Below are positions 7,246-22,360 of a DNA stretch of 30,434 nucleotides, one piece after another. Each line of letters opens with the position of its first letter. Position 1 is the stretch's first letter. Both the position numbers and the translations under genes were made by a program. This DNA is from a virus: IMG/VR virus record IMGVR_UViG_3300028196_000054, positions 1 to 30,434 of that record. The stretch is one strand, 5' to 3'. Under the pieces are notes generated by a model. The model made no database searches and had not been told where the DNA came from. It was given only the letters and a program-made list of their open reading frames with translations.

Positions 7246-7666
7246 AGAAATAATCCTTTCTGTAATAACGACCAAGTATATTAGAATTATAGTACTTGGG
7301 GTTACCATTGTCAAGAGATTCACTTAAAACATTATTAATAAACAATTGTCGAGTTTCTTCAAAATTTGTTTTTCCTTTTGTTTCATGTAAAGAAAGAATC
7401 TTTCTCCTAAAGTTTTCTTTTCCAAATTTCTTTACATCTTCTTTTAATTCTGGACAAGACCCATAATACTTTTTCCAATCACTCTCTTGCTTTACCTTTC
7501 GTTTTTTTCCTTTTGGAGTTCTAAATGACCAAAAATACTTTCTCCCAATGTACTGTCGTTGGTTTGTGAGATTGGTAATGTGATAAACAAAACCAAAGTT
7601 GTCCCGAACATCATCAGTATCAAAAGTTCGTTCCAAGAAAGTCCAAGCGTTTTCATAACTACTCAT
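7238..7666 (-). CDS. GIY-YIG-like endonuclease (Seg/homing-type)
   Basis: The segment FGFVYHITNLTNQRQYIGRK carries the two half-motifs of the GIY-YIG fold (VYHI and QYIGRK, with the catalytic Arg after YIG). It is followed by a basic stretch (KGKKRKVKQESDWKKYYGS) and FGKENFRRKIL, a strand typical of these nucleases. The length, about 142 residues, fits a catalytic domain with a small basic extension. T4 Seg and cyanophage relatives make double-strand breaks for gene spread; others act in DNA repair. I prefer ATG 7666 (MSSYEN); an in-frame ATG at 7675 lies nearer the hairpin. The leader forms a long hairpin. Confidence 0.75.
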   Translation of the reverse strand: MSSYENAWTFLERTFDTDDVRDNFGFVYHITNLTNQRQYIGRKYFWSFRTPKGKKRKVKQESDWKKYYGSCPELKEDVKKFGKENFRRKILSLHETKGKTNFEETRQLFINNVLSESLDNGNPKYYNSNILGRYYRKDYFYE

Positions 7667-7678
7667 AGAATACATTCA

Positions 7679-7723
7679 CTGTGGAGTTATTTAGAGTTAC
7701 TATATAACTTTCAAACTCCACAG
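7679..7723 (-). promoter_or_regulatory. Two-part hairpin with late-promoter-like loop, leader of the endonuclease gene
   Basis: A perfect 10-bp outer stem (7679-7688 with 7714-7723) encloses a second 5-bp stem (7695-7699 with 7705-7709). On the minus strand CTAAATA (7694-7688) sits directly before the 3' arm. A late transcript starting just after that motif would lack the 5' arm. It ends about 13 bases before the preferred ATG. Confidence 0.7.
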
Positions 7724-7740
7724 AGTTATTATAGTCATAA

Positions 7741-7768
7741 AAAAACACCCTTGTCAAGGGGTGTTTTT
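7741..7768 (-). terminator. Intrinsic terminator after the 491-aa gene
   Basis: A 10-bp stem (7741-7750 with 7759-7768) of the form AAAAACACCC / GGGTGTTTTT is followed on the minus strand by more T residues. It lies about 20 bases beyond the stop of the 491-aa gene and would separate it from the endonuclease gene. The A/U-rich outer stem also allows some function on the plus strand. Confidence 0.85.
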
Positions 7769-7788
7769 AATCGTTATGTTAGAAAAAA

Positions 7789-9264
7789 TTACTTCTTCTT
7801 ACGATTACCTTCTAATGCTTTCAATACGTCGGTGACGTTAGCAGCAGAACGAGTACCAAATTCTCTACCCATCTTACCAACCATTCTATTCTTATAAGGA
7901 TGCTCTCTGTCCATTCTCTGGGAGACTGTTTCCATTTCTCCACCCTTTCTCTTCATTTTTGATTCGGGTGTTGCTCTAGAATACCAATCCTTATTCAACT
8001 TCTCTGGGTTGTATCCACCCTTCTCTTGCTTATCCTTATCACCTTTTACTTTTGGACGGTCTGATGAACGTCCACCTGTGATAGCACCTCTGAGTTGATT
8101 TGACTGTTGAATGCCTTTGGCTCTAAACTTAGAGAACTTTTCAATGTTCTTTGCTGCTTTCTCTTTGTTTGCAGCTTTCTCTACTGCTTTTTTCTTATCG
8201 ACATCTTTGTAGGCTTCTTCGATATCTTCATCAGTTGCTTCAGAAAGATCATAACCAGCAACTTCGAGATTTTCAACAAATACGTTGTAATCTTCTACAT
8301 ACTCGTTATACTCTTCGATGATTGTTCCTACCCAAGCAGAAGACATTGCTTCCATCATTGTATTTACATCATCGATATCTTCTGCAAAACTATTTTCTAG
8401 AAGATATGATGCGACGATGTTATAAATTAGTTCGTCTTGTGACATTTCCGAAATACTCCCGTTATTGTATTCAGTATCTTCTTTATTTAGTTCTTTGCTT
8501 TCCTTCATTTTACGAGTATCACCTCTCATTGGTTCGTCACCAGCACGACGACGTGCTTTGTTTCCGGCACCTCTATCACCATAACCCATTCCCTTATCTT
8601 TCTTTACACCATCACCACCTCTTGACTTGATGGCTGGGTCTCCAGGTCTTACATCACCACGAACTCCGACATTGTGTGCAATCGCACGGTCAGTAGACCT
8701 ATACTTTCCACCACCCTTCTTAATTGTCTGGAAGGTCTTTTCTCTCATTGCTTTTTGACGAGGACCAGGACGCATTGCTTCATCAATGCCCTCTTCCTTG
8801 TCATCATCACCTTTTGGATCTTCTTTAACTTTTTTCATTGCTTCTTCTTTGGACATACCAGAAGCAATCATTCTTGCGATACGAACATCATCAAAGTCGT
8901 TATCACCATCCTTATCCTGGTCTTCCTTCTTCTCCTCATACATTGAGGAGTATAATTCGGAAATATCATTAACTGTTGATACCGAACCCCACTCAGAATT
9001 ACCAAGAAGTCCACCAGAAGACTTAAGTGGTGTTGTTGATGGGGTAGACGATGTTATTTGTGTTACTACTTGTAAGTCTTCACTTAAAGTAACTTGCTTT
9101 TGAGGAACAGGTGACCCTGTAGACTTGATATGATTTTCATAGATACCAAGACCGTCTGTAATGGTTTTTGCCGTTGTTGGCTTATCTGTTACAGATGCTT
9201 CAGAATCTTCAGTAAAAATACCTGTATATAGATTTTGTAACGCACTTAAATCTTCCTTCTTCAT
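7789..9264 (-). CDS. Probable virion (internal head) protein, 491 aa, lysine-rich, EF-hand-like loop
   Basis: The N-terminus LSALQNLYTGIFTED and an internal segment STVNDISELYSSMYEE (about residues 96-110) both resemble the first residues of the neighbouring 637-aa protein. DKDGDNDFDD (117-126) matches a calcium-binding loop (DxDxDxxxxD). A long basic, glycine-rich, disordered-looking region follows (with AMREKTF and GDRGAGNKARRRAGDEP), then an acidic helical region (EEYNEYVEDYNVFVENLE), and a basic C-terminus. Low complexity and short acidic-ended motifs fit internal head or scaffold-associated proteins of T4-like phages; this is inference. A CTAAATA hairpin leader precedes it. GGTAAGAAA before the ATG supports the start. 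Confidence 0.7.
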   Translation of the reverse strand: MKKEDLSALQNLYTGIFTEDSEASVTDKPTTAKTITDGLGIYENHIKSTGSPVPQKQVTLSEDLQVVTQITSSTPSTTPLKSSGGLLGNSEWGSVSTVNDISELYSSMYEEKKEDQDKDGDNDFDDVRIARMIASGMSKEEAMKKVKEDPKGDDDKEEGIDEAMRPGPRQKAMREKTFQTIKKGGGKYRSTDRAIAHNVGVRGDVRPGDPAIKSRGGDGVKKDKGMGYGDRGAGNKARRRAGDEPMRGDTRKMKESKELNKEDTEYNNGSISEMSQDELIYNIVASYLLENSFAEDIDDVNTMMEAMSSAWVGTIIEEYNEYVEDYNVFVENLEVAGYDLSEATDEDIEEAYKDVDKKKAVEKAANKEKAAKNIEKFSKFRAKGIQQSNQLRGAITGGRSSDRPKVKGDKDKQEKGGYNPEKLNKDWYSRATPESKMKRKGGEMETVSQRMDREHPYKNRMVGKMGREFGTRSAANVTDVLKALEGNRKKK

Positions 9265-9296
9265 TTTCTTACCGGGAAAGTAGTAACAACCGTTAT

Positions 9297-9321
9297 ATAC
9301 TTATATTTAGTATATAAGTAT
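9297..9321 (-). promoter_or_regulatory. Late-promoter-like hairpin upstream of the 491-aa gene
   Basis: Stem 9297-9306 with 9312-9321 (10 bp, AT-rich), loop of five. On the minus strand CTAAATA (9310-9304) spans the loop and the beginning of the 3' arm. The ATG is about 40 bases downstream. It resembles the T4 late motif TATAAATA, with the first bases changed. Confidence 0.55.
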
Positions 9322-9354
9322 TTTTAAGGATTTACATGTGTCCCACGAAGAAAA

Positions 9355-11268
9355 TCAAGAAATAGACTGCTTCCAGTAATCATATGCGGTTTCTTCTTTC
9401 TTAGTTGCTTGATAAGAACGAATTTTTGTTTCACCAGTTTTCTTATCTGGTGCAGCCATATGTGTCTTATACTTCATCGAAGTTGGATTATCTTTCTTTG
9501 CTGCTTCAAACCCCTTATGGACTTTTGCTGCATCATCATACATATGCACCTTCTTTGCACCTGCTTTTTTAGCAATAGCATCAGCAACCTTTACTTTCTT
9601 CTTACCAACATCAAGATCTTTATTTGATCCTTTACTCATTCCACCAGTGTAGTGAATATTTTTCTTATCAACATTAATTCCATGCTTCTTAAGGTGTCCA
9701 TGAAACTCACTTGGATTATCAAACTTAGCACGGGCAGTAACTAAGTGGACGTTCTTACCTCTAGAAACTTTTCTCTTAATATCCTTAACTACTTTTTTAT
9801 TAGATGCAGAAGTTTCTTTGAACTTCTTAGCACTTTGGAACTCACCAAAATCATACTTATGTCCTTTATCTAATTTGTGAGTATTGAATTCCTGGTTACT
9901 TAAACTCTTTACTCTCTTTCCACTTGAATCATTTACATGGACTTTTACATTTGGTTTTCCCTTTTTACCATGGGAAAATAATGTTTCATCTACATCATAT
10001 GCATGAACTGTAGACTTTTTCCTTGTTCCTCTTGCCTTCTCTTCAATATAATCAACGTCTTCTACTGCATAACGAGCATCCGACTTTGATGTATCCATAT
10101 TCTTCTTTGCTGTTTTAGTAGCAGTGGCATACATTACCGATTTATAATCATCACCATATTTCTTTTTAAAATCACTGGCACGTTTTTTAAGACCTTTAAC
10201 GATTCTTTCTTTCTCATTCTTTTCAGCATCATCCAATGCTCTTTCAGAAACAAAGTCCTCGTTCTTCATTTCTTTCCAACGTGAATAGATGCCAGAAGCA
10301 ACACCGTGATCTCCACGTTCTGTTGCTTTCTTTTGCATATCCCATAATTGTTTTTTGGAATATTGATGATTGCTCATTATACTATATGTGTCATCATGTG
10401 ACATACCGCGTTCGTTTGCTTCATATATTTTTGCAGAGAACATTGGAATTCCAGACTTTTCCCATACCTCTGGTCCATATGAGCACTCGGACTTTGTTTC
10501 CATTTTATTACAGAATGGGCAGAACTTTTGATCTTCTGCTCCTTCACCAATTTTAGTTACTACTTTTTTCTTACCATCTACAGATGGAACAAACTCACCA
10601 TAGTTACCCATAGACTTATCGTTCTTATCTACAAAACCAGAAACATTAGTATCAATTCTCTTTGATGCTTTTACTGAGAGTTTCTTTAGATTGCCACCAC
10701 CAATATTTGATTCTTCCCTTTCTTGAATATCACCACCTTCTGATTCAAATGACTGATTCATCATTTGCTTAAGTCTCATATTTCTATCACCAAGTCTACC
10801 TGCCAATCCCTTATTTCCTGTTGGTGATTTTACTTGTTTTTTCGCAAGTGGATTTTTGATATTAAGATTTGGATGCCCAATATATCCGTCACCAGGACGA
10901 CCACCAATAACTTCGTCAAGGTTTTCACCTTCTGATTCGTAACCAGCCATTTGTATTGATGGTTTCTTTTTAGCTAGAGGAGGAAGTTGTGCTCCAGATT
11001 TCTTTAAGAAAGCATCCTTCTCATTAGGATTAGTTGTACTTTTCCCTTTATTATAAATCTTACTACCTCTCATAGCACCTTTGTGCCCTGGTCCAATATC
11101 AAAACTTGCTTCATCTATCTCTTCTTTTGATCGAGGATCCCCACCTCTAGGTTTTTCTGCCTTACCCTTAGGATTTCTATGGTCAGGTTTCATTACTCTT
11201 TTTTCTGATGGGGTAACCTCTTCAGAGATAGTCTTATATAAATTAGCAATATCGTTTACAATAGACAT
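9355..11268 (-). CDS. Large basic protein with C-terminal HAD phosphatase domain, probable virion-associated, 637 aa
   Basis: N-terminal motif MSIVNDIANLYKTISEE, then a long disordered-looking K/G/N-rich region with GPGHKGAMRGSK. A possible zinc site CPFC (about 250-253) with a further Cys follows, then a helical segment KKRASDFKKKYGDDYKSVMY. The HAD domain has AYDVDETLF (DxDxT, about 425-429), VTARA (510-514) and MYDDA (577-580), the complete catalytic set, so phosphatase activity is likely. The substrate is not known: nucleotide or polynucleotide ends are possible. The open frame reaches 11280 through a TTG, but ATG 11268 gives the motif at the very N-terminus. It follows nrdB across a 14-bp inverted repeat and carries a CTAAATA motif 24 bases upstream. 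Confidence 0.75.
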   Translation of the reverse strand: MSIVNDIANLYKTISEEVTPSEKRVMKPDHRNPKGKAEKPRGGDPRSKEEIDEASFDIGPGHKGAMRGSKIYNKGKSTTNPNEKDAFLKKSGAQLPPLAKKKPSIQMAGYESEGENLDEVIGGRPGDGYIGHPNLNIKNPLAKKQVKSPTGNKGLAGRLGDRNMRLKQMMNQSFESEGGDIQEREESNIGGGNLKKLSVKASKRIDTNVSGFVDKNDKSMGNYGEFVPSVDGKKKVVTKIGEGAEDQKFCPFCNKMETKSECSYGPEVWEKSGIPMFSAKIYEANERGMSHDDTYSIMSNHQYSKKQLWDMQKKATERGDHGVASGIYSRWKEMKNEDFVSERALDDAEKNEKERIVKGLKKRASDFKKKYGDDYKSVMYATATKTAKKNMDTSKSDARYAVEDVDYIEEKARGTRKKSTVHAYDVDETLFSHGKKGKPNVKVHVNDSSGKRVKSLSNQEFNTHKLDKGHKYDFGEFQSAKKFKETSASNKKVVKDIKRKVSRGKNVHLVTARAKFDNPSEFHGHLKKHGINVDKKNIHYTGGMSKGSNKDLDVGKKKVKVADAIAKKAGAKKVHMYDDAAKVHKGFEAAKKDNPTSMKYKTHMAAPDKKTGETKIRSYQATKKEETAYDYWKQSIS

Positions 11269-11280
11269 ACCAATGCACAA

Positions 11281-11320
11281 TGGTTTTCAACTATTTAGTT
11301 GTTTTTATAGTTGAAAACCA
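11281..11320 (-). promoter_or_regulatory. 14-bp hairpin at the nrdB end with late-promoter-like motif
   Basis: Perfect arms 11281-11294 and 11307-11320 with a 12-base loop. The 5' arm (minus strand) contains the last codons of nrdB (GGT TTT CAA CTA TAA). CTAAATA (11298-11292) lies at the loop/3'-arm junction. No T run follows, so a simple terminator is unlikely. Candidate roles are mRNA processing or stability and late initiation for the 637-aa gene. Confidence 0.75.
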
Positions 11321-12495
11321 GAGAATGCATCCTTCTTCATATCTTGCTTAATTCCACCAACTACATAAGACTCTACTTCAGTTTCTTGAGGTGCAACCTG
11401 AAGACCCTTAGATGAAATCCAATGCTCAGTCCATGGCAGGGGGTTATTTTTTGCAGGAATATTGTAAATTGGTTTAATCCCAATAGACTTCATTCTGCGA
11501 TTTGCAATCCATTCCACATATTGATGAAGGAGTTTATCGTTTAGACCAATCATAGATCCATCTTTGAATAAGTATTCTGCCCATGATTTTTCTTCTTCAA
11601 CACAATTTCGGAAAGCATTAATTACCCACTCTTCTTCCTCTTTCGCAATTTCTGCCATTTCTGGGTCATCTCCTTGATGCCACTTGTTGATGATGTTTTG
11701 AGTAATTGCAAGATGCTGATTTTCGTCTCGTGCGATGAGAGAGATGATTTTAGCGGATCCCTCCATAAGTTTGAGTTCACCAAACGCAAACGAGCAAGCG
11801 AACGAAACATAGAACCTGATACCTTCGAGTATATTGACATTAGCAACTGCTCTATAAAGTTTGCGTTTTAGTTCACGACGAGATTCTCGGAAACTACCCG
11901 CATTATCTTGTGCATGTTTCCAATCATCAGTATTACCATAGTGCTGTGCTGCTTTAATGAATTCATCATAAGCATGAGTAACACTACTTGCACGTTCTAA
12001 AATTCGTTCATCATCTAGAATAGTATCAAAAACATCCGATGGATTTGAATATATATTCTTAATGATATAAGTGTATGAACGACTGTGAATCATTTCCATG
12101 AATCCCCAGACTTCCATACATGCTTCTAGTTCAGGTAAAGAGCAATATGGAATGAATGCCATGCCAGGACCACGACCTTGAACAGAATCTAAAAGAATTT
12201 GATACTTCAAATTAGAAGTAAAAATATGCTTCTGCTCAGGACGCAATGTTTGATAATCAGAACGATCCTTTTGCAGTGAAACTTCTTCCGGTCTCCAAAA
12301 GTATCCTAGTTGTTGAGTTGTTAATTTATCAAAGACGGGATACTTGTATGAATCATACCTCTGGATACCCAGAGGTTGACCAAAAAACATTGGTTGTTTT
12401 TTACTGTCTGTCTTATTTGTATTAAATACTGTCATTCCTTTGACTATATTGCTAGTGGTCTCGTCTGAGTTTGCTCTAAATTTTACAGGATTCAC
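11305..12495 (-). CDS. nrdB: Ribonucleotide reductase class Ia, beta subunit
   Basis: A 396-residue diiron-tyrosyl subunit. Iron ligands: Asp in LLDSVQGR, Glu and His in MEMIHSRSYTY (the Tyr of SRSY is the radical site), Glu in NILEGIRFY, and Glu and His in ARDENQHLA. The C-terminus AFSGFQL matches the family tail that docks on NrdA. The start is GTG at 12495, with AAGGAG nine bases upstream. Both lie inside the end of nrdA, so the two subunits are coupled and made in step. NrdB supplies the radical for reducing ribonucleotides to deoxyribonucleotides for phage DNA synthesis. No nrdC is seen in the window. Confidence 0.96.
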   Translation of the reverse strand: MNPVKFRANSDETTSNIVKGMTVFNTNKTDSKKQPMFFGQPLGIQRYDSYKYPVFDKLTTQQLGYFWRPEEVSLQKDRSDYQTLRPEQKHIFTSNLKYQILLDSVQGRGPGMAFIPYCSLPELEACMEVWGFMEMIHSRSYTYIIKNIYSNPSDVFDTILDDERILERASSVTHAYDEFIKAAQHYGNTDDWKHAQDNAGSFRESRRELKRKLYRAVANVNILEGIRFYVSFACSFAFGELKLMEGSAKIISLIARDENQHLAITQNIINKWHQGDDPEMAEIAKEEEEWVINAFRNCVEEEKSWAEYLFKDGSMIGLNDKLLHQYVEWIANRRMKSIGIKPIYNIPAKNNPLPWTEHWISSKGLQVAPQETEVESYVVGGIKQDMKKDAFSGFQL

Positions 12496-14776
12496 AGTCT
12501 TCTTCTCCTTCTAAACTTAATAGTTCTGTAATTAATTGGTCTACGTTTTCTTTTTCGTCAGTGATTTCGTCTTTTTTATTATCATATGTGTTTTGATAAT
12601 AAGAAGTCTTCCATCCGTACTTATATGTTTTAAGCAAATCCTGTGCCATGACAGATACAGGGACTTCATTATCAGGATAATTCTCTGGGTTGTAACTCCA
12701 GTTACCTGATATTGCCTGGTCAAAGAATTTTTGCATTACAGAAACTACATTAATATATCCATTATTATTAGGCATTTCCCACAGGAGAGTATAATTATTC
12801 TTTAGTGTTTGATACTGAGGAACAATTTGTTTAAGGGGCCCTTTTTTGGATTTTTTAATGGACAGATAATCTCTTGGTGGTTCGATTCCATTGGTTGCAT
12901 TTGACACAACGGAACTGCTTTCTGAAGGCATTTGTGCGGACAATGTTGAGTGCCTAAGACCGTGGGTAGTGATAGATGCCCTAAGAGACTCCCAATCATG
13001 TGATAACTCCTGGTTAGTAATTTCATCTACATCTGTCTTATATGTATCAATCGGAAGAATACCATCAGAATACTTAGTGCGAGAAAAGTACTCGCAAGCA
13101 CCTTTTTCTTTTGCAATTTCATTTGATGATTTTAAAAGATAATACTGAAAGGATTCTGATAATCCATGTACAGCATCCCATGCTTCCTGGGAGTCATAAT
13201 TATAACCCAACTTGGCAAGATAATGAGCAAGACCAATATATCCTATACCAAGAGACCTACGTGCCTTTGTGGACCTCTCAGCAGCATTTACAGGATAGTC
13301 CTGATAATCAATTAGTTCTTCAAGACTACGGACAGAAAGGTCACATAGTTCTTCAAACTCTTCATCAGATTTTACCTTACCAATATTGATAGCAGAAAGA
13401 ATACAAAGAGCAATCTCACCATTAGAATCATCGATATGATTCAACGGTTTAGTAGGAAGAGTAATCTCTTGGCAAAGATTGGACATCTCAATCTTATCTT
13501 TAAAAGAGGAATGTGAGTTACAGTGGTCAATATTCATCAAATAGATGCGACCAGTTTCTGCACGTTCTTTCAAAAGATCTAGAAAGAGTTCCTGAGCACC
13601 GATAGTCTTTCTTGGAACAGACTGATTTGATTCATAGTCCACATAGCAAGCGTCAAATGTATCAGTACCAAAAGCATCATAGAGACCTGGTACGTCATGC
13701 GGTGAGAATAAGCTAATCTCTCCATTCTGGATGAAACGTTCGTAGAAAAGTTTTGAAATTTGGATTGAGTAGTCAAGTTTCCTCACTCGATTGTCTTCTG
13801 TTCCTTTATTGTTCTTGAGAACAATAATATCTTCTATTTCCTGGTGCCAGATAGGAAAGTGAACTGTAGCAGAACCACCTCTGATGCCGTTTTGTGTACA
13901 ACATCTGACAGTTGCTTCAAACTTTTTAAGGAAGGGGATAACGCCTGTGTGTTGTACCTCTCCGCCTCTGATTTTAGCATTGATGCCACGGATTCTGCCT
14001 GCGTTAATACCGATACCAGCCCTCTGTGCGACGTACCTACCAATAGCCATATCGCTGCTAAAGATACTATCGAGGGTGTCATCAGCATCAACGAGAACAC
14101 AAGATGCAAATTGACGGAGTGGTGTCCGAACTCCCGCCATGATTGGTGTTGGGATGTTGATTTTGTGCTTGCTGATTGCGTCGTAGTATCGTCTGACATA
14201 AGACAGTCTTGTCTCCTTTGGGTATTCTGCAAAAATAGTCAAAGCAATCATCATATACATGAACTGGGGTGTCTCGTAGACTTTTCCAGAACTTCGATCT
14301 TGGACTAGATATTTATCTACAACCTGTCTTAGACCTGCATATGTAAACAGAAAATCACGATGATGATCAATATAGTTTCCTGCTTTAATAAGTTCATCAT
14401 TAGTATACTTATTAAAGATACTTTCATCATACACTGATAATCTTACGCATTTTTCAATGTGTTCAAAGAACTCTGGATGGTCCTTTGTCTTGCCATAAAG
14501 TGATTTCCTTACAGAAAATAAAAGAAGTCTTGCTGCAACAAATTGATAATTTGGATTATCAAGATTAATTAAATCTGAGGCAGAACGAATCAAGATTTCT
14601 TGAATTTCTGCTGTAGTAATTCCATCATAAAATTGAATACCAGACTGCATCTCTACTTGAGAAGCAGATACACCTGCCAAATCTTGACATGCTTCATCAA
14701 CCATCAAATGCATCTTCTCTAAATGGAGAGGTTCTGTCCTACCATTTCTTTTAACGACTCTTGTTCCGTTGGTCAT
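12476..14776 (-). CDS. nrdA: Ribonucleotide reductase class Ia, alpha subunit
   Basis: A 766-residue catalytic subunit. An N-terminal ATP-cone-like region (RVVKRNGRTEPLHLEKMH) is followed by the redox Cys in FASCVLVD, the QRAGIGINAGRIRG block and the active-site SNLCQEI (Asn, Cys, Glu). The second redox Cys is in IALCILSA, then come PSESSSVVSNATNGIEPPR and a C-terminal CESCK shuttle pair. All catalytic residues of the E. coli-type enzyme are present. The ATG at 14776 overlaps the primase stop (ATGA) with GGAAG upstream; the open frame reaches 14788 only through a TTG. Marine cyanobacteria typically rely on a class II enzyme, so a class Ia pair is phage-specific supply (established for cyanophages). 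Confidence 0.97.
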   Translation of the reverse strand: MTNGTRVVKRNGRTEPLHLEKMHLMVDEACQDLAGVSASQVEMQSGIQFYDGITTAEIQEILIRSASDLINLDNPNYQFVAARLLLFSVRKSLYGKTKDHPEFFEHIEKCVRLSVYDESIFNKYTNDELIKAGNYIDHHRDFLFTYAGLRQVVDKYLVQDRSSGKVYETPQFMYMMIALTIFAEYPKETRLSYVRRYYDAISKHKINIPTPIMAGVRTPLRQFASCVLVDADDTLDSIFSSDMAIGRYVAQRAGIGINAGRIRGINAKIRGGEVQHTGVIPFLKKFEATVRCCTQNGIRGGSATVHFPIWHQEIEDIIVLKNNKGTEDNRVRKLDYSIQISKLFYERFIQNGEISLFSPHDVPGLYDAFGTDTFDACYVDYESNQSVPRKTIGAQELFLDLLKERAETGRIYLMNIDHCNSHSSFKDKIEMSNLCQEITLPTKPLNHIDDSNGEIALCILSAINIGKVKSDEEFEELCDLSVRSLEELIDYQDYPVNAAERSTKARRSLGIGYIGLAHYLAKLGYNYDSQEAWDAVHGLSESFQYYLLKSSNEIAKEKGACEYFSRTKYSDGILPIDTYKTDVDEITNQELSHDWESLRASITTHGLRHSTLSAQMPSESSSVVSNATNGIEPPRDYLSIKKSKKGPLKQIVPQYQTLKNNYTLLWEMPNNNGYINVVSVMQKFFDQAISGNWSYNPENYPDNEVPVSVMAQDLLKTYKYGWKTSYYQNTYDNKKDEITDEKENVDQLITELLSLEGEEDCESCKI

Positions 14777-15765
14777 ATTTTCTTCCAATTAGTAAATTTA
14801 AGTTTTGCCTCTAGTCCAGAGAATACATTTGATTCTATCACACACATAACATCAAGTCCAGATAATACCATATCATTGATGTCCTTTTCTTTAATATTTG
14901 ATGGCCAGATTACTACAGAGTTTCCACTATTGATGGTTTTATCAATTCGTTGGAGGATTTCTCTATTACGTGGTTCGTTATCGTAGACCCAAACAGGATT
15001 GCTAATCCCCCAGTCACTAATATTAGCATCAGCTCCACACATAGCAATTGAGTTGCGAATAAACGTACTATCGAATGGTCCTTCTGTAATGAATACTGGG
15101 TCATCTTTTCTGATTTTATCAAGTCCATATAATTTAGGTTTAGTATCATCTAGAATAATAGTAATATATTTAATTTTTGATTCTTTCTGTAAACTTCTTC
15201 CTTGAAACCCAAAGATTTTTCCTTCATATCTTAGAGGAATAATGATTCTTGGTTCTTCGTTATTTAAGTTATCGAAAGTATGTTTTTGTTTATTAGTCCA
15301 AGTTTTGAATTTTTCACAATAATACAAATCACGAAAATATTCCTGTGGGATTTTTCTTTTTTCTAAGTATTGTCTTGCCAGATGTTCTTTATTTAGTTCT
15401 TCAATATTTGGCAAATCGAATGTTTTTTTGGAGAAATCCGGTTTTTCAAATTTAAAATCAGGTTTCTTTGTTTGACTTCCCTTTCCAGTCAAACCTTTCT
15501 TATATCTTTCCATCACATACTGGTCATAAAGAACAGGATCGATGTCCTTTAAGAAATTAGTAAATGTCCTAGATGCACCACAATTGTGACATTTAAAGTT
15601 ATGATCATTCTTTAGTTTATAAAGATACCCTCTTGCCTTATTCCTATGCTTCTGCGAGTCTCCGCAATAAGGACATCTAAAGTTGTAAAGACCTTCTTTT
15701 TTCTTTGCAAATTTCACTAAACGAGAAGAAACCAATCCAATATACTTGGAATCAACAATACTCAT
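14773..15765 (-). CDS. 61: DNA primase, T4 gp61-like
   Basis: A 330-residue protein. The N-terminal zinc site is FRCPYCGDSQ (Cys31, Cys34) and KCHNCGASR (Cys59, Cys62). The middle has the RYEGKIFGFQGRS strand region, and the C-terminal Toprim-type core has FITEGPFDS (catalytic Glu), VYDNEPRN and KDINDMVLSG. The order matches DnaG/gp61 primases, which make RNA primers for lagging-strand synthesis with the gp41 helicase. The start overlaps the upstream stop as ATGA, and its own stop overlaps nrdA, tying primer synthesis and dNTP supply into one translation unit. Confidence 0.92.
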   Translation of the reverse strand: MSIVDSKYIGLVSSRLVKFAKKKEGLYNFRCPYCGDSQKHRNKARGYLYKLKNDHNFKCHNCGASRTFTNFLKDIDPVLYDQYVMERYKKGLTGKGSQTKKPDFKFEKPDFSKKTFDLPNIEELNKEHLARQYLEKRKIPQEYFRDLYYCEKFKTWTNKQKHTFDNLNNEEPRIIIPLRYEGKIFGFQGRSLQKESKIKYITIILDDTKPKLYGLDKIRKDDPVFITEGPFDSTFIRNSIAMCGADANISDWGISNPVWVYDNEPRNREILQRIDKTINSGNSVVIWPSNIKEKDINDMVLSGLDVMCVIESNVFSGLEAKLKFTNWKKI

Positions 15766-16190
15766 CCAATAATCTCAACGTGCGTTCCCTCTATATTACT
15801 GACCTTTTCAGTTGGTGTCAACAATTTGAAGACAGGAGGGAACACTTGTAATACTGTCACAAGGGTTGTCAAGACAGCAGAGGTAGCAATGACAAACCTA
15901 GCATTGCTTTCTGTTTTCTTTTGAACCTTGCTAATTCGCTCATGCATCATATCCATATCTCTCTGTTGCCTTTCCTTCATCTCTTCCAACATACCGATGA
16001 TGAGTTTATCAGCACGTTCAGATTCATCTAAACGATTTTCATGGCGCTCCAAGATTACAGCAACTCTATTGCTGTTTTCTGAAATTGTACCTACTGCTCT
16101 TTCGAGCTTGTCAAGCATCTCTTTAGAGAGATCTTCATAAATGCTCAGTTTACTTTCCAAAACTGCTAATCTACCAAGACCAAGTGCCAT
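15762..16190 (-). CDS. Coiled-coil protein with C-terminal membrane segment, 142 aa
   Basis: Residues 10-95 are strongly amphipathic helix (SKEMLDKLERAVG, RHENRLDESERADKLIIGML, ERISKVQKK). Then VIATSAVLTTLVTVLQVFPPVF (about 100-121) is a likely transmembrane helix, and a short tail follows. The layout resembles XhlA-like phage membrane proteins, whose helical part acts at the membrane during lysis, but the topology and role are inferred. It is coupled to its neighbours by TAATG upstream and ATGA downstream, an odd place for a lysis gene because primase follows directly. Confidence 0.7.
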   Translation of the reverse strand: MALGLGRLAVLESKLSIYEDLSKEMLDKLERAVGTISENSNRVAVILERHENRLDESERADKLIIGMLEEMKERQQRDMDMMHERISKVQKKTESNARFVIATSAVLTTLVTVLQVFPPVFKLLTPTEKVSNIEGTHVEIIG

Positions 16191-16381
16191 TACTTTTTAT
16201 TCCAGAGTTTTCTATATCCTGTACCATAAATGTAATTTTTAGTTTTCCTCCTTTTTACAGGTGGATCATCACCTGCTTCAACTGTTCCTGCGATTTTACC
16301 GGCAGAAACAGAATTAGTTGGCGCAGCAACTGCCATTTCCTCCCTAATGATAAAAATTAATTTATCTATTTTATCCATCAT
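16190..16381 (-). CDS. Small hypothetical protein, 63 aa
   Basis: The start is at the tandem ATGATG (16381/16378) after AAGGAG, overlapping the upstream stop as TAATG; the longer frame to 16408 is not needed. The N-terminal helix MDKIDKLIFIIREEM is followed by a flexible middle (PTNSVSAGKIAGTVEAGDD) and a basic aromatic tail (KNYIYGTGYRKLWNKK). It looks like a small adaptor-type phage protein. I cannot assign a function. It is tightly linked to the coiled-coil gene. Confidence 0.7.
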   Translation of the reverse strand: MMDKIDKLIFIIREEMAVAAPTNSVSAGKIAGTVEAGDDPPVKRRKTKNYIYGTGYRKLWNKK

Positions 16382-16752
16382 TAAACACTCCTTAGGAATT
16401 CCATACATTTTTTATCCACTTCTATATCATGAATAGTAGTGTGTGGGTACTCAGGCAACCTTCCAAGATAAACAACAAATGTTTTAACTATTTCCCAATA
16501 TTCTTTTTCAAGTTTATAAAATAATAACGGTGTAGTTGCATCACCAAAAACATTATAGAGAATTATAAAATGATTAATAAGAAGGTGAGCTTTTAACTCA
16601 CCTTCTTTTTTATATCGTTTCAATAATCTTTTTATCCACTTAAACCTTTTCAGGTCCTCATAAAAATCATCCTTTGTAACAGCAGCAGGATTTTCATAAT
16701 GCTTTATTGCAAATAAAAGATAATTATCTTCGTTCAACTCATTAAATAACAT
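16381..16752 (-). CDS. Conserved-looking hypothetical protein, 123 aa
   Basis: A fully helical, soluble protein with well-ordered blocks: NELNEDNYLLFAIKHYENP, KRFKWIKRLLKRY, HLLINHFIILYNVFGDATTPLL, KTFVVYLGRLPEYPH. The style is that of T4-like cyanophage core proteins of unknown function. A TATAAATT element lies 6-13 bases before the ATG. A striking feature is an 11-bp inverted repeat followed by a T run, readable on the plus strand inside the gene; on the coding strand it encodes KKEGELKAHLL. Confidence 0.75.
   Translation of the reverse strand: MLFNELNEDNYLLFAIKHYENPAAVTKDDFYEDLKRFKWIKRLLKRYKKEGELKAHLLINHFIILYNVFGDATTPLLFYKLEKEYWEIVKTFVVYLGRLPEYPHTTIHDIEVDKKCMEFLRSV
16579..16611 (+). terminator. 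Terminator-like hairpin inside a coding region, plus-strand orientation
   Basis: An 11-bp perfect stem (16579-16589 with 16597-16607) and 7-base loop are followed by T residues up to 16611 on the plus strand. It lies antisense within the 123-aa gene, so it could stop antisense transcripts. On the minus strand the A run precedes the stem and there is no T tail. Confidence 0.5.
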
Positions 16753-16771
16753 ATTCTAATTTATAGTTTAA

Positions 16772-17260
16772 TTATTCAGCAAACTTAGCATCATCAGCAG
16801 CATCACCGGTAATTGAACTACCAGCAACTAATACTTCATGCTTGACTCTAAGATTGCCGTGATTATCAACATAGGTTGTCATTCCAACCCATCCAGCATG
16901 TGATACTGCATATGCAGTGGTGGCAGCAACTCCAACCTCAGTTGCATCTACACCAAAAATTTCAGTAGCAGAATAGTTACTATCTTCTACTGTATATTTT
17001 GGTTGTTCGGACATGTTGTATGCCTGTGTTAATCCCGAACCATCTGTAATACCAGAAGCACTAGCAAGAGTTACTTGAGTAGTAGAATCGACTGACTTAA
17101 TTACACCACTACCATATGATCCCATAGAAATAACTAACCCAGGGACAACACCATTACCTGAATTCCAAGTAGTGCCATTGCCAGTAATAACACCTTCAGT
17201 GGTGATGGTAGTAATATTTCCTGTTGAATATACGGTATCCTGTTTGCCCCAGAGTGCCAT
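16772..17260 (-). CDS. Probable virion structural protein, 162 aa
   Basis: A beta-rich, Gly/Thr/Ser-rich protein (ITTITTEGVITGNGTTWN, GVVPGLVISMGSYGSG) with a conserved-looking C-terminal part (VAATTAYAVSHAGWVGMTTYVDN, then HGNLRVKHEVLVA). It starts MALWGKQD. The repeat-like beta segments and absence of catalytic motifs fit a small capsid-decoration or neck/tail protein. It has the clearest late promoter of the window: a perfect TATAAATA 32 bases before the ATG, with GGAAAGG as Shine-Dalgarno. That supports late, structural expression. Confidence 0.75.
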   Translation of the reverse strand: MALWGKQDTVYSTGNITTITTEGVITGNGTTWNSGNGVVPGLVISMGSYGSGVIKSVDSTTQVTLASASGITDGSGLTQAYNMSEQPKYTVEDSNYSATEIFGVDATEVGVAATTAYAVSHAGWVGMTTYVDNHGNLRVKHEVLVAGSSITGDAADDAKFAE

Positions 17261-17291
17261 GTTAACCTTTCCGTAAAATTTTTCCTAAACT

Positions 17292-17299
17292 TATTTATA
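17292..17299 (-). promoter_or_regulatory. T4-type late promoter (TATAAATA)
   Basis: A perfect match on the minus strand to the T4 late consensus recognised by gp55 with gp33/gp45. The ATG of the probable virion protein lies 32 bases downstream after a GGAAAGG ribosome site, and a terminator lies just upstream. The late unit therefore appears self-contained. Confidence 0.8.
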
Positions 17300-17318
17300 A
17301 AAACATCCACATACAAAA

Positions 17319-17340
17319 GGAGGAGAAAAATATCTCCTCC
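17319..17340 (-). terminator. Intrinsic terminator after the 71-aa gene
   Basis: An 8-bp perfect stem (17319-17326 with 17333-17340) of GGAGGAGA type, with a 6-base loop and a TTTT tail on the minus strand. It separates the 71-aa gene from the late promoter of the virion protein. Confidence 0.75.
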
Positions 17341-17361
17341 CATTATACTTTAAATATTATA

Positions 17362-17577
17362 TTAGTTAGAAGATGCCTCTTCATCCCTTGAAAGAATTGC
17401 CTTTTCAACTACCGCAAGTAGTTCATCGTCCATAGTAGTCTTAGTCAGTTTAACTGCTTTATTAAGAATCACTAGACAAATCTCAACTAACTTTTCACCA
17501 AGTTCCTCGTTCTCGGGAATCTTAGCAACTGCGTCAGAAATAATTTTTGATGCTAATGGAAGTAAAAATGAAAACAT
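17362..17577 (-). CDS. Small hypothetical protein, 71 aa
   Basis: The ATG at 17577 has GAGG six bases upstream; the longer frame to 17589 lacks this. The N-terminus FSFLLPLASKIISDAVAKIP is amphipathic or weakly membrane-seeking. Then come EKLVEICLVILNKAVKLTK and an acidic tail. It is flanked by a weak hairpin upstream (17626-17640) and a terminator downstream, and a CTAAATA motif (17608-17602) sits about 25 bases before the start. That suggests an independent late transcript. Function unknown. Confidence 0.7.
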   Translation of the reverse strand: MFSFLLPLASKIISDAVAKIPENEELGEKLVEICLVILNKAVKLTKTTMDDELLAVVEKAILSRDEEASSN

Positions 17578-17601
17578 AATTAACCTCATATTGTTTTGAA
17601 T

Positions 17602-17608
17602 TATTTAG
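17602..17608 (-). promoter_or_regulatory. Late-promoter-like CTAAATA
   Basis: The minus-strand motif is one change from ATAAATA, 25 bases before the ATG of the 71-aa gene. A weak 5-bp ATTGT/ACAAT pairing surrounds it. The hairpin 17626-17640 (TTTACC/GGTAAA) lies upstream and could be a weak terminator of the 901-aa gene. Confidence 0.45.
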
Positions 17609-17649
17609 GACAATTAATCAAATAATTTACCCCCGGTAAACAATTACAC

Positions 17650-20355
17650 TCAGCAGTTCCACGCTCTAAGTGATTTAGACAGACGATCTTCACCAGTATT
17701 ATTAGATGGTTTCTGGCGCTTACGCATTCCCTTCATTCTAGCACAGAATGATGCTCTTCTCTTGTTACCTTTCTTTTTGGATGGTGCTTTTAAGTCAGAA
17801 CCAGGATTCTCTGCTTCATAAGACTTGCGTCCTTTCTCATTGAGTCCACCTGATTCTGACTTACCGGACTTTTTTGTCCATGCTGCTCCTTCCCATAGAC
17901 CTCCTTGAATTTCAGAAAGAAGGTTAGAGATTTCTGGGTATTCCACAGAATTCTTAATTGTTGTTCCTCTAGTAGATCCACTCTGAGAGGAGACAGATCC
18001 AGGTGCTGGTTTCACAACTTTAGGTGCTGGTGGTTTTGGGACTGAACCAGCTGCTGGTTTCACAACTTTAGGTGCTGGTGGTTTTGGGACTGAACCAGCT
18101 GCTGGTCTCGTAAAACCCTTCATTAGTGGGTTAGGAGTTTTTGGTTTTAGTTGATTACCAAACCTAGAACGAGATGCTGCCATACCATACTTTGCAGCAA
18201 GTTTTGGATCTGACTTACGAAGTTTATCATAAGTTGCTCTAGTTTTTACATCTGCTTGCTGTCTTGCAGTAGGAGATGGTTTAGATAGTGCTGGTGGATT
18301 GTTAGATGCTGGTGGATTGTTAGATGCTGGCTTATTGACGGTAAGCTTTTGACCACTATCAACACCTTGACCAGGCTTGTAGTTGGGGTCTGCCCTACGG
18401 CGACCAGCGGTTTCTGCGCCAATCTCACCTTTGGTTACAGTTTTTCTAGTACCAACACCCTGTCCCCTGCGCCTATTAATATCATCATAAGACTTCTCGT
18501 AACTTACAGCAGAATTTCTTTGTGATGCGTTACCAAACATCTTCTGTCCAAGTCTTACTAATTGACCTAAAGCTCCAGATTTTGGATCATCAGCAATTCC
18601 TTCAGTAATCTTTTTCTTCATCAAAGGATTCGTAGTCTGATTCGTTCCTCTAGTACGATCTCTTTCTTTTTTTGCAGCAGCAAGTTTTGGATTTGCCTTT
18701 GCCCAAGCAGACATGCGGTCTGCCTTGGAGGCATTTGCCATCCTATCTCTAGATGATGCCGCAGGTTTAACAGGTGCTTGAGGTCTGACAGATGCTGCAG
18801 GTTTAACAGGTGCTTGAGGTCTGACAGGTTTAACAGGATTAACAGGTTTATCAGATGCTGCAGGTTTAACAGGATTAACAGGTTTATCAGATGCTGCAGG
18901 TTTAACAGGTGGTTTAGATTTATTTGTACCTGCACCCGTACCAAAAAAATCTGTATTAGTTCTGCGTTCTTTACTATTTTTGTCTATTTGTGTTTGTGCA
19001 GCAGGTGTAGAAGCACGAGTCTTAGAACCATTGTTGGTGGGTAGTTTACCAAAGTCTTTACTGGTCGGGTTTAAGAACGTAGCGACTTTGTTTATTCTCT
19101 CCCGATTTCTAAAAGCTGCAGGATTGTTCTTGGGAGTCTCACGTCTACCTCGGAACAGGTTTCCGAGACTTGTAGTCACACCCTGACCAAGATCCCTACC
19201 CATGTTGGTAAGTGCTCTACCACCTCTATAACCAGCATCGGTCTCTTTGTTTGTTTTTGGAGCAGGTGTTACTTCATACAATGCCAACTTTTTCTCTAAC
19301 AGCTGACCTAAAGAATATTCTTCACCCATAGGAGGATTGATAATAACTTTATTCTTTCCCTTCATTATATCAATAACTTTCTTTTCTTGTTTTTTCTCTT
19401 CTATCTCAGATAGAAATTCTTCAAATAAAATTTCATCTCTCCAACTTGAATAAGATTCCATTGGTTTCTCCCTGTCTTTGATTAGTTTTTCTCTCATTTT
19501 TTTATCCTTTCTTGCCTTCTGCCCAACGGATTCATCAGAAGATGCAGAGGTTTCCCCAGCAGCAGGTAGTTTTTTTGGTCCTGCAGGAGGTAATTTAGGA
19601 ACAGAAGGTGAAAGTTTTTTAGTTTCTGGTGTTCCAGAAATCTTTGCTTGTGGTTTTTCAATCACAGAAACATTTACTTTCTTAACTCTCTGATTATCTT
19701 GTTTTGGTTTTTTAGGAACACCAGCAGAAACAGATTTCTTTGGAGTTGATTCTGATTTCTTTTCAGATCCAGAAGAAGGCATCAATCTCTTTTGTCCTTC
19801 ATCTTTCCTTTTTATTCTATATGGTTGTGAAGTTCTAGCAGTAGTAGATGGTTCTGCGACCATCTTTTTCTTAGGTCTTCCAGGGTTACCTGGTTCTTTC
19901 TTATCTGCTTGCTTTGCTTCTGCTTCCTTCTTTTGCTTATCTAACTTTCTCTTTTTCATAAGTGCTCTTGCACCATGAAAAGCAGCACCAGCAACTCCAC
20001 CAGCAAGTGATGCAACGTTTTCACCTGCCTTCTGCATTGCAGTGGCACCACCTTCTTTAGAACTGATTGTTTGTATCTTCACATTACGTAAAGACTGTTT
20101 TGCTTTCTCCTTACTCTTATCTACATCTTTTTTACCTTGCCCCTTAAGTTTTTCTAATTGTCTTTTTTTCTGATCTTCATACTTCTCTTTCTTAAAAGCA
20201 AGTTGTTGTTTTAAATACTCAGTATAGTCAGATTTCTTTTTCTTATCTTCCTTTTTTTTATCACCTCGCAAGTCCGCAATGACCTTATCTCCTGCTTTCT
20301 TTTTATCAGCAGCAGTCACTTGTTTTTCGTAAAGGTTATAATCCCAACTAGTCAT
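17650..20355 (-). CDS. 901-aa repeat-rich basic protein, probable virion-associated, with DUF6321-like C-terminus
   Basis: Lys/Ala/Pro-rich with long low-complexity regions. The N-terminus is coiled (DYTEYLKQQLAFKKEKYEDQ). The segment WRDEILFEEFLSEIEEKK resembles phage head-targeting peptides ending in acidic residues. Proline-rich repeats follow (KPAASDKPVNPV, VRPQAPVKPAAS, and a 16-residue unit beginning GSVPKPPAPK twice). The last 70 residues (GGLNEKGRKSYE..., RRASFCARMKGM, LSKSLRAWNC) match a recurrent phage C-terminal domain that I believe is the DUF6321 type. Function is not established. Its start overlaps the nucleotidyltransferase stop (ATGA), so both are made together, behind a late promoter. 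A DNA-binding internal head protein is a fair guess. Confidence 0.75.
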   Translation of the reverse strand: MTSWDYNLYEKQVTAADKKKAGDKVIADLRGDKKKEDKKKKSDYTEYLKQQLAFKKEKYEDQKKRQLEKLKGQGKKDVDKSKEKAKQSLRNVKIQTISSKEGGATAMQKAGENVASLAGGVAGAAFHGARALMKKRKLDKQKKEAEAKQADKKEPGNPGRPKKKMVAEPSTTARTSQPYRIKRKDEGQKRLMPSSGSEKKSESTPKKSVSAGVPKKPKQDNQRVKKVNVSVIEKPQAKISGTPETKKLSPSVPKLPPAGPKKLPAAGETSASSDESVGQKARKDKKMREKLIKDREKPMESYSSWRDEILFEEFLSEIEEKKQEKKVIDIMKGKNKVIINPPMGEEYSLGQLLEKKLALYEVTPAPKTNKETDAGYRGGRALTNMGRDLGQGVTTSLGNLFRGRRETPKNNPAAFRNRERINKVATFLNPTSKDFGKLPTNNGSKTRASTPAAQTQIDKNSKERRTNTDFFGTGAGTNKSKPPVKPAASDKPVNPVKPAASDKPVNPVKPVRPQAPVKPAASVRPQAPVKPAASSRDRMANASKADRMSAWAKANPKLAAAKKERDRTRGTNQTTNPLMKKKITEGIADDPKSGALGQLVRLGQKMFGNASQRNSAVSYEKSYDDINRRRGQGVGTRKTVTKGEIGAETAGRRRADPNYKPGQGVDSGQKLTVNKPASNNPPASNNPPALSKPSPTARQQADVKTRATYDKLRKSDPKLAAKYGMAASRSRFGNQLKPKTPNPLMKGFTRPAAGSVPKPPAPKVVKPAAGSVPKPPAPKVVKPAPGSVSSQSGSTRGTTIKNSVEYPEISNLLSEIQGGLWEGAAWTKKSGKSESGGLNEKGRKSYEAENPGSDLKAPSKKKGNKRRASFCARMKGMRKRQKPSNNTGEDRLSKSLRAWNC
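18005..18100. repeat. 48-bp tandem repeat, two copies, in frame
   Basis: Two adjacent, essentially identical 48-base units (18005-18052, 18053-18100) encode the 16-residue unit beginning GSVPKPPAPK. They lie within the 901-aa gene. The near identity suggests recent duplication and likely length variation between relatives. Confidence 0.85.
18761..18909. repeat. 36-bp-type imperfect repeats, in frame
   Basis: About four imperfect 36-base units encode alternating KPAASDKPVNPV and VRPQAPVKPAAS segments within the 901-aa gene. The unit length is a multiple of three, so changes in copy number keep the frame. Confidence 0.8.
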
Positions 20356-21512
20356 TTTTTACGAATTAGCTTTTTTCTATCTTTATTTATCGTTTTAACA
20401 GTATCACCAAATAACCTAACTCGTTCTCCTGGTGTAATTTTTTGCACATGATTAAGATACTCTGTAGTTCCAATTTCATAGAACTCTCTAACATCTTTCA
20501 ACCAACTTTTAAACATTACCTCATCTTCCGTTACACATATAAGATAATTTGCACCTCTCCTTATAACTTCACCAATTAAACCAGTATTTAAGTTCTCAAC
20601 AAAAGAACCAATCTCATATAACCCATTTTCCTTATAATTCCACCTCAATCCATCTTCATCCAACTCTGGAACAATTTTCCATGCTTCTGTTTTAGATGAC
20701 ACATTCATATTTTTTCTTAATGTATCAAACATCTGTTTCGATACTCCAGTATCAACACCAGGTGGGATACCTATTTTAAATTTATCAAAATCATTCATAG
20801 CAACAGAAGTTCTCATGAGTGACGAAGAACCTGGGTCTTCAACATCACTATCTGGATCTTTCATTCCAGAAGAAACTACCTCAACACTGTTAAAGGAATA
20901 AGATTCCCCATTTGCTTTATGAACTAATCCTTGAAATTCACCTAACCTATCTTGACCAACAACAATAACTACTTCGGTATATCCATCATTATAAATGGAA
21001 GATAATATATCAAAGATAGTCTTGCTTTCATCATTATCAACAATATAGTCAGCATAAGATGGAAATAATAATTGAAGATACTGAACCTTATCTGCAGCAC
21101 TCAACGGATTGGACAAGTCGTCCTGTATTCTACTAGGATAAATTCTATACTCATATCCTCTTCTTTTTGCTTCTCTAAAACCTGCTTTCAGTAAAGACTC
21201 ATGATTTTTTGATGGAGGATTAAATCTTCCAATAGTCACAACAACACCATTCTCTTCCGGTACTTCTTCTTGTGGTTCAGGTTGTTGCTGTACTTTCCCC
21301 TTCTTCTTTATTTCTTCACCAGGTATACCGTCCTTAGATACAGTATCACCTTGACCATAATACTTTAACTTACCACCAACAGTTTTTGCTACAAAATTTC
21401 CTTGTGCATCGTACCAATCACCATGACCATTTCCAACAAGTCCACGGTTCTTTGCTTCTGTAGATGCTAAAGTCTCTACTGCTTCTGTGAAAAAATTGGC
21501 AAAACTCTTCAT
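20352..21512 (-). CDS. Nucleotidyltransferase-like protein (NMN adenylyl-/cytidylyltransferase fold) with capsid-targeting-like N-terminus, 386 aa
   Basis: The nucleotidyltransferase core starts VVVTIGRFNPPSKNHESLL (about 90-108) and includes ADKVQYLQLLFP, VVIVVGQDRLGEF and SSSLMRTSVA (the ISSTxxR-type block, 229-236). The usual (H/T)xGH active-site motif reads SKNH, so the His at the last position is kept but Gly and the first residue differ. The N-terminus MKSFANFFTEA resembles T4 internal-protein prepeptides (MKTYQEFIAEA). A second block GNGHGDWYDAQGNFVAK follows. The C-terminal 120 residues are unassigned. A perfect TATAAATA lies 19 bases before the ATG. An NAD-related or other nucleotidyl transfer role in the virion is speculative. 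Confidence 0.75.
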   Translation of the reverse strand: MKSFANFFTEAVETLASTEAKNRGLVGNGHGDWYDAQGNFVAKTVGGKLKYYGQGDTVSKDGIPGEEIKKKGKVQQQPEPQEEVPEENGVVVTIGRFNPPSKNHESLLKAGFREAKRRGYEYRIYPSRIQDDLSNPLSAADKVQYLQLLFPSYADYIVDNDESKTIFDILSSIYNDGYTEVVIVVGQDRLGEFQGLVHKANGESYSFNSVEVVSSGMKDPDSDVEDPGSSSLMRTSVAMNDFDKFKIGIPPGVDTGVSKQMFDTLRKNMNVSSKTEAWKIVPELDEDGLRWNYKENGLYEIGSFVENLNTGLIGEVIRRGANYLICVTEDEVMFKSWLKDVREFYEIGTTEYLNHVQKITPGERVRLFGDTVKTINKDRKKLIRKK

Positions 21513-21530
21513 TATTATACTACTTTTAAG

Positions 21531-21538
21531 TATTTATA
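21531..21538 (-). promoter_or_regulatory. T4-type late promoter (TATAAATA)
   Basis: A perfect late consensus on the minus strand that overlaps the stop codon (TAA) of the preceding nuclease gene. The nucleotidyltransferase ATG is 19 bases downstream. It would drive the nucleotidyltransferase and 901-aa genes together late in infection. Confidence 0.8.
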
Positions 21539-22301
21539 GATTATTATATAACAGATTTCTAAATGACATATCATCTAAATTATACTTACTGGACTGAACA
21601 GTGGCAGATTTCAAAGTCAAAGTTGGACTAAATGTTCTTTTTGAATTACTTGATTTTCCCCTAATGATTAAATCTGCGGAAGAAGGATTAAACTGTGGTA
21701 TTTTTATACCCAATGTTTGATTTAAATTAGCAATATCTTTTCCCATGGTATAAAATCCACTTCCTTTTATTTGAATATAATTAATTCCCTTTGCGTTGTA
21801 ATAGTTTATAATATTAGAAATCACATCTTTTCCAGATGCTATTTTTTTCGTTGGAAATGGGGTACTTTGTCCTGTAGATTCTGATAAAAGTTTGTCATAA
21901 AATAATATTTTACTCATACTATCATCAGTAACTATTTGACGTAAATCTTCACCAGTTATCGATTCATTTGGTAATTTCCAAAGTTCTGTAATTTTTTTCC
22001 CAACATTATATTGAGTAAACATTTGATTATATAATTCAACAATTTGTAGAGGTTCTTGGCCTGTTACTTTAGGAATCCAACTTCTACCATCAAATGTAAC
22101 TGCCTTTTGCCCAAAGTCAGCACCAGTGCTTGTCTTAACTTCAACTAAAAGATTTTGTCTAGGATTACTAGGGAAAGGTATTGTTAAGTCAGGACCACTT
22201 CCAAACCCTGCTGTATTAGGAATTCTTTTGAAGATAGCCTTTAATTTAGTCCGTAAAGACTGTTCATATTGTTTACCAATCAATGCAACATTTGAATGCA
22301 T
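21534..22301 (-). CDS. PD-(D/E)XK nuclease-like protein, 255 aa
   Basis: An early helix (GKQYEQSLRTKLKAIF) is followed by FGSGPDLTIPFPS (Asp38) and LLVEVKTSTG (Glu54, Lys56): the D...ExK signature of restriction-endonuclease-like folds with the expected spacing, including the preceding helix. The rest has aromatic segments (GINYIQIKGSGFYTMG, FNPSSADLIIRG). It could be a structure-specific nuclease in replication, recombination or packaging; the substrate is not visible. The leader is unusual: the start lies right after the nine-T run of a hairpin, and the Shine-Dalgarno AGGGAG is part of the stem. Confidence 0.65.
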   Translation of the reverse strand: MHSNVALIGKQYEQSLRTKLKAIFKRIPNTAGFGSGPDLTIPFPSNPRQNLLVEVKTSTGADFGQKAVTFDGRSWIPKVTGQEPLQIVELYNQMFTQYNVGKKITELWKLPNESITGEDLRQIVTDDSMSKILFYDKLLSESTGQSTPFPTKKIASGKDVISNIINYYNAKGINYIQIKGSGFYTMGKDIANLNQTLGIKIPQFNPSSADLIIRGKSSNSKRTFSPTLTLKSATVQSSKYNLDDMSFRNLLYNNL

Positions 22302-22311
22302 AAAAAAAAAC

Positions 22312-22342
22312 TCCCTAGTTTCATATATTTAGAAACTAGGGA
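22312..22342 (-). terminator. Terminator hairpin overlapping the ribosome site and a late motif of the next gene
   Basis: An 11-bp perfect stem (22312-22322 with 22332-22342), 9-base loop, and nine T residues on the minus strand. It should terminate the mazG transcript. CTAAATA (22332-22326) covers the loop. AGGGAG (22316-22311) is the Shine-Dalgarno of the nuclease gene, with its ATG directly after the T run. Confidence 0.85.
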
Positions 22343-22360
22343 AGAATATTTAGATATTAA

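Follow-up and report, generated by a model that had tools for sequence, protein, structure and literature searches.

Late-promoter motifs nested in hairpins and terminators at gene boundaries of a T4-like cyanophage: candidate stage filters

In bacteriophage T4, the long early RNA that covers gene e folds and hides the start site of the gene, while RNA from the late promoter is missing the hairpin's 5' strand (PMC3014915). A late promoter joined to a hairpin is also found before the GIY-YIG or HNH genes for I-TevI, I-TevII, I-TevIII, SegB and Aeh1 MobE, which lie in early operons (PMC2988022). What is known of the same logic in cyanophages? Gene e was not found in the four cyanophages examined (PMC3014915), and motA and asi, which serve middle transcription in T4, have no homologues in the cyanophage branch (PMC2984593). 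The late motif published for cyanophages is NATAAATA (PMC2984593). In S-PM2d, psbA has sites for sigma-70 and for gp55, and its leader contains a 36-bp inverted repeat; in the accessible part of that article, the authors suggest a role in mRNA stability or light response, and do not propose a hairpin cancelled by a late start (PMC5931967).

The window, by which we mean the whole stretch of DNA analysed (30.4 kb), is a fragment of a T4-like cyanophage whose nearest database records are Synechococcus phages, e.g., S-SKS1. Its genes, with nrdA, nrdB, primase, MazG, helicase, UvsX and DNA polymerase among them, are all carried on the minus strand. A preliminary description of this DNA had pointed to four genes preceded by an inverted repeat whose loop, or loop edge, contains CTAAATA, and had named T4 gene e and I-TevI as precedents, which are the right ones. 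All four repeats are indeed there (S1 to S4, with perfect arms of 11, 14, 10 and 10 bp), on the minus strand as every gene of the window, and in each of them CTAAATA lies in the loop or overlaps the loop junction. A fifth hairpin, S5, had been missed. The features are as follows, in the direction of transcription.

22361-22849, minus strand: mazG, the gene upstream of S1; the nested terminator fills the slot behind it
22347-22353, minus strand: another CTAAATA, ahead of the S1 hairpin; a transcript begun there would include the whole terminator
22332-22342, minus strand: 5' arm of S1, TCCCTAGTTTC, C-rich, arm of a putative intrinsic terminator
22326-22332, minus strand: CTAAATA of S1 in the terminator loop; +1 predicted at 22320 (from 359 intergenic sites)
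22312-22322, minus strand: 3' arm of S1, GAAACTAGGGA, G-rich; in the late mRNA it would form an SD-like leader
22302-22310, minus strand: terminator tail of S1, nine T, directly before the ATG at 22301
21534-22301, minus strand: gene behind S1, 255 aa, candidate PD-(D/E)XK nuclease by motif only
11281-11320, minus strand: S2, 14-bp hairpin, arms 11281-11294 and 11307-11320, CTAAATA at 11292-11298, ATG at 11268
9355-11280 (ORF limits), minus strand: gene behind S2, 637 aa from the likely start ATG at 11268, no family match
9297-9321, minus strand: S3, 10-bp hairpin, arms 9297-9306 and 9312-9321, overlapping CTAAATA at 9304-9310, ATG at 9264
7789-9264, minus strand: gene behind S3, 491 aa, no family match
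7741-7768, minus strand: intrinsic terminator whose loop contains TTGACA (7752-7757); with the TATAAT at 7728-7733 this makes a sigma-70 promoter that shares DNA with the terminator
7679-7723, minus strand: S4, 10-bp hairpin, arms 7679-7688 and 7714-7723, 25-nt loop, the 3' arm overlapped by CTAAATA at 7688-7694
7238-7675, minus strand: gene behind S4, predicted SegE-type GIY-YIG homing endonuclease (PF19835, E = 3e-53)
6522-6580, minus strand: S5, hairpin, arms of 28 nt with 21 bp perfect, the loop containing TTAAATA at 6555-6561

We think it quite probable that such elements act as stage filters at the boundaries where early/middle transcription of T4-like cyanophages gives way to late transcription, and that they do so in two forms, A and B. 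A gp55-type late promoter, [AC]TAAATA, would be placed so that the start falls past the 5' arm of the hairpin. RNA reading in from upstream genes would hold both arms and fold, leaving the downstream gene off, while RNA begun at the late promoter would lack the 5' arm, stay unfolded and allow the gene to be expressed. In form A (S2, perhaps S3 to S5, and the homing endonuclease genes of relatives), a stem set against the start codon would block translation. In form B (S1), a terminator with a U-run directly before the ATG would end the read-through RNA, and any RNA escaping termination would have its SD-like sequence tied up in the 3' arm; in late RNA of this form the terminator would be cancelled and the 3' arm would serve as leader, typically AAGAGGGGAUUUUUUAUG. 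The predicted +1 positions (22320, 11286, 9298, 7682 and 6549 for S1 to S5) all fall 3' of the element's own 5' arm. The start codon follows the 3' arm by 10 nt at S1, 12 at S2 and 32 at S3; at S4 the distance is 3 or 14 nt, according to which start codon is taken. The SD-like 3' arm lies inside the stem at S1 and the AUG inside it at S5, the stem is close to the start at S2 and S4, and at S3 the start is 32 nt away. That early RNA would close and late RNA would open had been expected in the preliminary description, and predicted folding of the two transcript versions agrees: the computed cost of opening the start region falls at all five sites from 12.9-17.8 to 1.4-8.1 kcal/mol (16.2 to 3.1, 17.0 to 8.1, 17.8 to 4.4, 12.9 to 1.4 and 16.6 to 2.7 kcal/mol for S1 to S5), a model result that is partly circular because the sites were picked for their stems.

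The promoter itself had been assumed at the beginning, and this assumption has held up well. Motif statistics were taken from 323 sequences (2.46 Mb), made up of the window and fetched loci, one of which (L001) was itself cut from the window. [AC]TAAATA behaves there as a T4-type late promoter, both by its enrichment between genes and by a purine bias at the predicted start: A or C precedes TAAATA at 85% of intergenic sites vs 37% of those in genes, and the sixth base after the motif, the predicted +1, is a purine at 81% of 359 intergenic sites vs 57% of 170 in-gene sites (Fisher p ~1e-8, computed from rounded percentages). CTAAATA is one position off NATAAATA, and across the window it occurs ten times on the coding strand and not once on the opposite strand. 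That it stands behind 40 of 280 terminators, vs 2-6 for permuted heptamers, also speaks for a promoter. A blast search with a short T4-like promoter string gave no match. On these statistics, the reading of [AC]TAAATA as a probable late promoter is well supported. Downstream of nrdB at several other loci (L033, L040, L055, L060, L071 and L076), TTAAATA is followed immediately by GGGGG...CCCCC and ATG, and the gene after it encodes a conserved protein of ~53 aa (phrog_566 for the relative L346). There the promoter spacer itself would be the 5' arm, and the promoter reading is uncertain at such loci because TTAAATA shows no purine bias at +1.

S1 is the best-supported element of the window. It reads TCCCTAGTTTC, the loop TAAATATAT, GAAACTAGGGA, a G, nine T and ATG, and the C of its motif is the final base of the 5' arm. 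An 11-bp stem with G-C pairs, then one base, then nine T is the composition of an intrinsic terminator, and S1 is probably such a terminator, not just a sequestering hairpin. The second CTAAATA upstream of the hairpin counts against the switch model. What does the gene behind it encode? The 255-aa protein has no Pfam match, and its relatives were not recovered with a single-sequence query; they were recovered with an alignment query. E13, D38 and E54-x-K56 are invariant in an alignment of 13 homologues, which suggests a PD-(D/E)XK nuclease. Its predicted structure reaches pLDDT 32 from the single sequence and 66 from the 13-row alignment, and the best hit of a fold search, HinP1I (E = 0.16, TM 0.22), is not significant.

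Most of the 21 loci with relatives of this gene, down to ~30% identity, retain a stem whose loop carries CTAAATA and behind which T and ATG follow; the exceptions are L396, with a terminator and then the motif, and L406, which has neither. The layout also extends beyond this gene. It was found behind mazG at roughly 27-31 of 63 loci, as counted by eye, and the genes occupying this slot vary, forming groups of 255, 310, 380 and 512 aa without detected mutual similarity. In the isolates P-TIM40, S-H25 and P-SSM3 the motif stands behind mazG without a nested hairpin. Exact CTAAATA is present in 8 of 135 nonredundant terminator loops, where 105 permutations give a mean of 0.26. Among the matches listed from IMG/VR, TTTCTAAATANNAGAAA extends to a stem of at least 9 bp at 23 of 107 sites, and the permuted control loop TTTCTATAAANNAGAAA does so at none of 106; the comparison is of the fraction of sites with an extended stem, not of total pattern counts. 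G outnumbers C in the 3' arm of every one of the 39 form B elements, vs 35 of the 106 remaining terminators. Late leaders are predicted to be 12-19 bases long and mostly of the type AAGAGGGGAUUUUUUAUG, and an SD core of at least 4 bases is present in 29 of 35 of them. From this we infer that the form B 3' arm may double as a ribosome binding site that is locked in read-through RNA, though its richness in G could have a different cause. A third geometry, predicted to have the same outcome as form B, is seen at L124, L156 and L658, where ATAAATA stands directly before a small terminator and the 5-base promoter spacer is the 5' arm.

Form B is like an ordinary intrinsic terminator in its G-C-containing stem and U-run, and unlike it in the late promoter in the loop, in a 3' arm that is always G-rich, and in that one class of transcripts would cancel the terminator. 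Is it then necessary to think of a switch at all? The rival explanation that survives best is compact insulation only: ordinary terminators, or stabilisers of upstream mRNA 3' ends, would share space with a late promoter by chance, with no sequestration and no timing. In its favour, packing appears to be general. A terminator followed by a late promoter is the most frequent arrangement among 280 terminators, the late motif standing directly behind 40 of them vs 2-6 for permuted heptamers. Early sigma-70 promoters also share DNA with terminators, as at 7741-7768 in the window: none of the 180 permutations of TTGACA is as frequent in terminator loops as TTGACA itself (6 vs a mean of 0.28), and 10 of the 12 terminator loops containing TTGAC show a correctly spaced -10-like box. 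Insulation leaves unexplained, however, why exact CTAAATA lies within the loop instead of beside the stem, why the G/C polarity is reversed in all 39 of 39 elements, and why, in form A, the stems before homing endonucleases reach to the start codon and have no U-run. We therefore regard insulation alone as unlikely.

A further rival explanation is that the repeats are DNA operators, bound by a dimeric protein such as the endonuclease itself, which would repress the late promoter. I-TevI does bind an operator overlapping its own late promoter (PMC2988022), and a nuclease-type gene lies behind both S1 and S4. A protein operator should, however, keep its sequence, and the arms of S1 behave differently. 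When 19 elements, of which S1 and its homologues make up 13, are aligned on the C of CTAAATA, the pairs k = 4 to 10 show three to six Watson-Crick or wobble types each; the arms are wholly changed between homologues and complementarity is retained. The layout is, moreover, common to non-homologous downstream genes, and we give the operator very little credence. Returning to the terminator with a nested promoter, we lean, with less assurance than for the stage filters themselves, towards a general cyanophage element, the self-cancelling terminator. A stage-specific promoter would lie in its loop and its 3' arm would turn into the Shine-Dalgarno sequence of the late mRNA, so that one short element would be terminator, promoter, translational lock and ribosome binding site, persisting at one boundary while the gene behind it is exchanged.

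Among the sites of the window, compensatory change of pairs (three to six types) is demonstrated for S1 only, and the others differ in how far they are conserved. The 5' arm of S2 overlies the last codons of nrdB; of two close relatives, one has an identical S2 (L163) and the other keeps 13 of 14 pairs (L164), and at the same position more distant relatives have a terminator and then ATAAATA. The S3 stem is A/T only except for one G-C pair, and the start region is outside its arms. It is identical in L163, L164 and L243, so that a covariation test is impossible there, and it is absent in the more distant L209-L212. At S4, relatives retaining the promoter miss the 3' arm, and the pairing is unique to the window. 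The gene behind S4, a probable homing endonuclease by its family profile match, may have its true start at the ATG at 7664, judging by relatives, and it also has a perfect sigma-70 promoter, TTGACA-18-TATAAT, just upstream. S5 is the longest hairpin of the window, with the start codon (6524) of a 51-aa ORF at the end of its 3' arm, and is absent in three relatives with a similar ORF start (L163, L164 and L243). S4 and S5 were rejected as conserved switches after these comparisons, and the want of evolutionary support for S3, S4 and S5 counts against the switch model. The U-run is absent at S2, S3 and S4, and they are not terminators. A single uniform device behind all four sites was also abandoned as an explanation, S1 being the putative terminator and S2 to S4 differing in conservation and layout.

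Hairpins spanning the predicted start were scanned at 557 nonredundant intergenic late-motif sites of these phages, a stem being counted if its 5' arm is lost at the predicted start. Stems of -18 or lower are found at 16 of the 557 sites vs 0.1 in shuffles, and vs 4 of 579 motif-free intergenic controls (p = 0.006). At a threshold of -16 the contrast is weak (21 of 557 vs 11 of 579 motif-free controls, p = 0.07), so that the excess is partly a general hairpin content of intergenic DNA. The strongest stems without a U-run, i.e., form A, end 0-6 bases ahead of the AUG, and 8 of 12 form A genes match GIY-YIG, HNH or NUMOD vs about 4 of 39 control late-motif genes, both figures being tallied from member counts. 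S-SKS1, a phage of Synechococcus WH7803, is among those with form A hairpins. The same scan recovers the T4 gene e site (7 bp), and no promoter-in-terminator element is among the strongest hairpin-spanning sites of T4. T4 has TATAAATA and a clear SD in the stem, whereas the cyanophage stems of form A are longer (8-17 bp), often end at the AUG and contain little SD. Form A resembles the I-TevI group in preceding mainly the same kinds of genes, and differs from it in that the cyanophage endonucleases are free-standing and the hairpin sequences unrelated; no description of these endonuclease hairpins was found in the literature searched.

In the window, CTAAATA is flanked by perfect arms of 10 bp or more at four sites. 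Over 300 dinucleotide shuffles of the window the mean is 0.013 such sites and the maximum 1, and shuffling of the flanks alone gives 0.017. These figures are optimistic because the layout was defined after being seen, but tests on other genomes, independent of the window, agree. The preliminary description had named an occurrence no higher than in shuffled AT-rich sequence as grounds for refutation, and the outcome is the opposite. Chance palindromes in A/T-rich DNA, to which a nearly all-A/T S3 and the non-conserved pairings of S4 and S5 might point, are thus a highly improbable account in view of four sites against 0.013 expected and of the enrichment and covariation in relatives, and are refuted for S1 and for form B generally, not for S3, S4 and S5 singly. 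Of the earlier proposal, the principle of a hairpin around a late promoter has proved real and wider than four sites, while the four sites are not one device, and a 'phage-wide' timing system is too strong a term: stems of -14 or lower spanning +1 occur at ~5% of the 557 late-motif sites, and most late promoters of these phages have no such hairpin. The device is a local solution that recurs at certain boundaries between early and late transcription and does not amount to a rule for the whole phage.

A late promoter in a terminator loop with the 3' arm as leader was not found described in the largely open-access literature searched, and the nested terminator seems to be a new version of the known T4 device, widespread in viruses of marine cyanobacteria. 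If this is true, abundant marine phages would silence late and possibly harmful genes inside early operons without a repressor, and a T4 control principle would be extended to a distant branch. The nested terminator is compact, recognisable from sequence and testable with reporters, and should help the prediction of operons and start sites in cyanophages.

Three further elements of the window may be recorded here. A wcaG RNA (RF01761, 52 bits) lies at 4106-4195 on the minus strand, and a tRNA gene (RF00005) at 6982-7052 on the same strand. Late motifs in tandem, ATAAATACTAAATA, lie at 29376-29389, and behind them comes a GGGGAGG...CCTCCCC hairpin with TTGACA inside.
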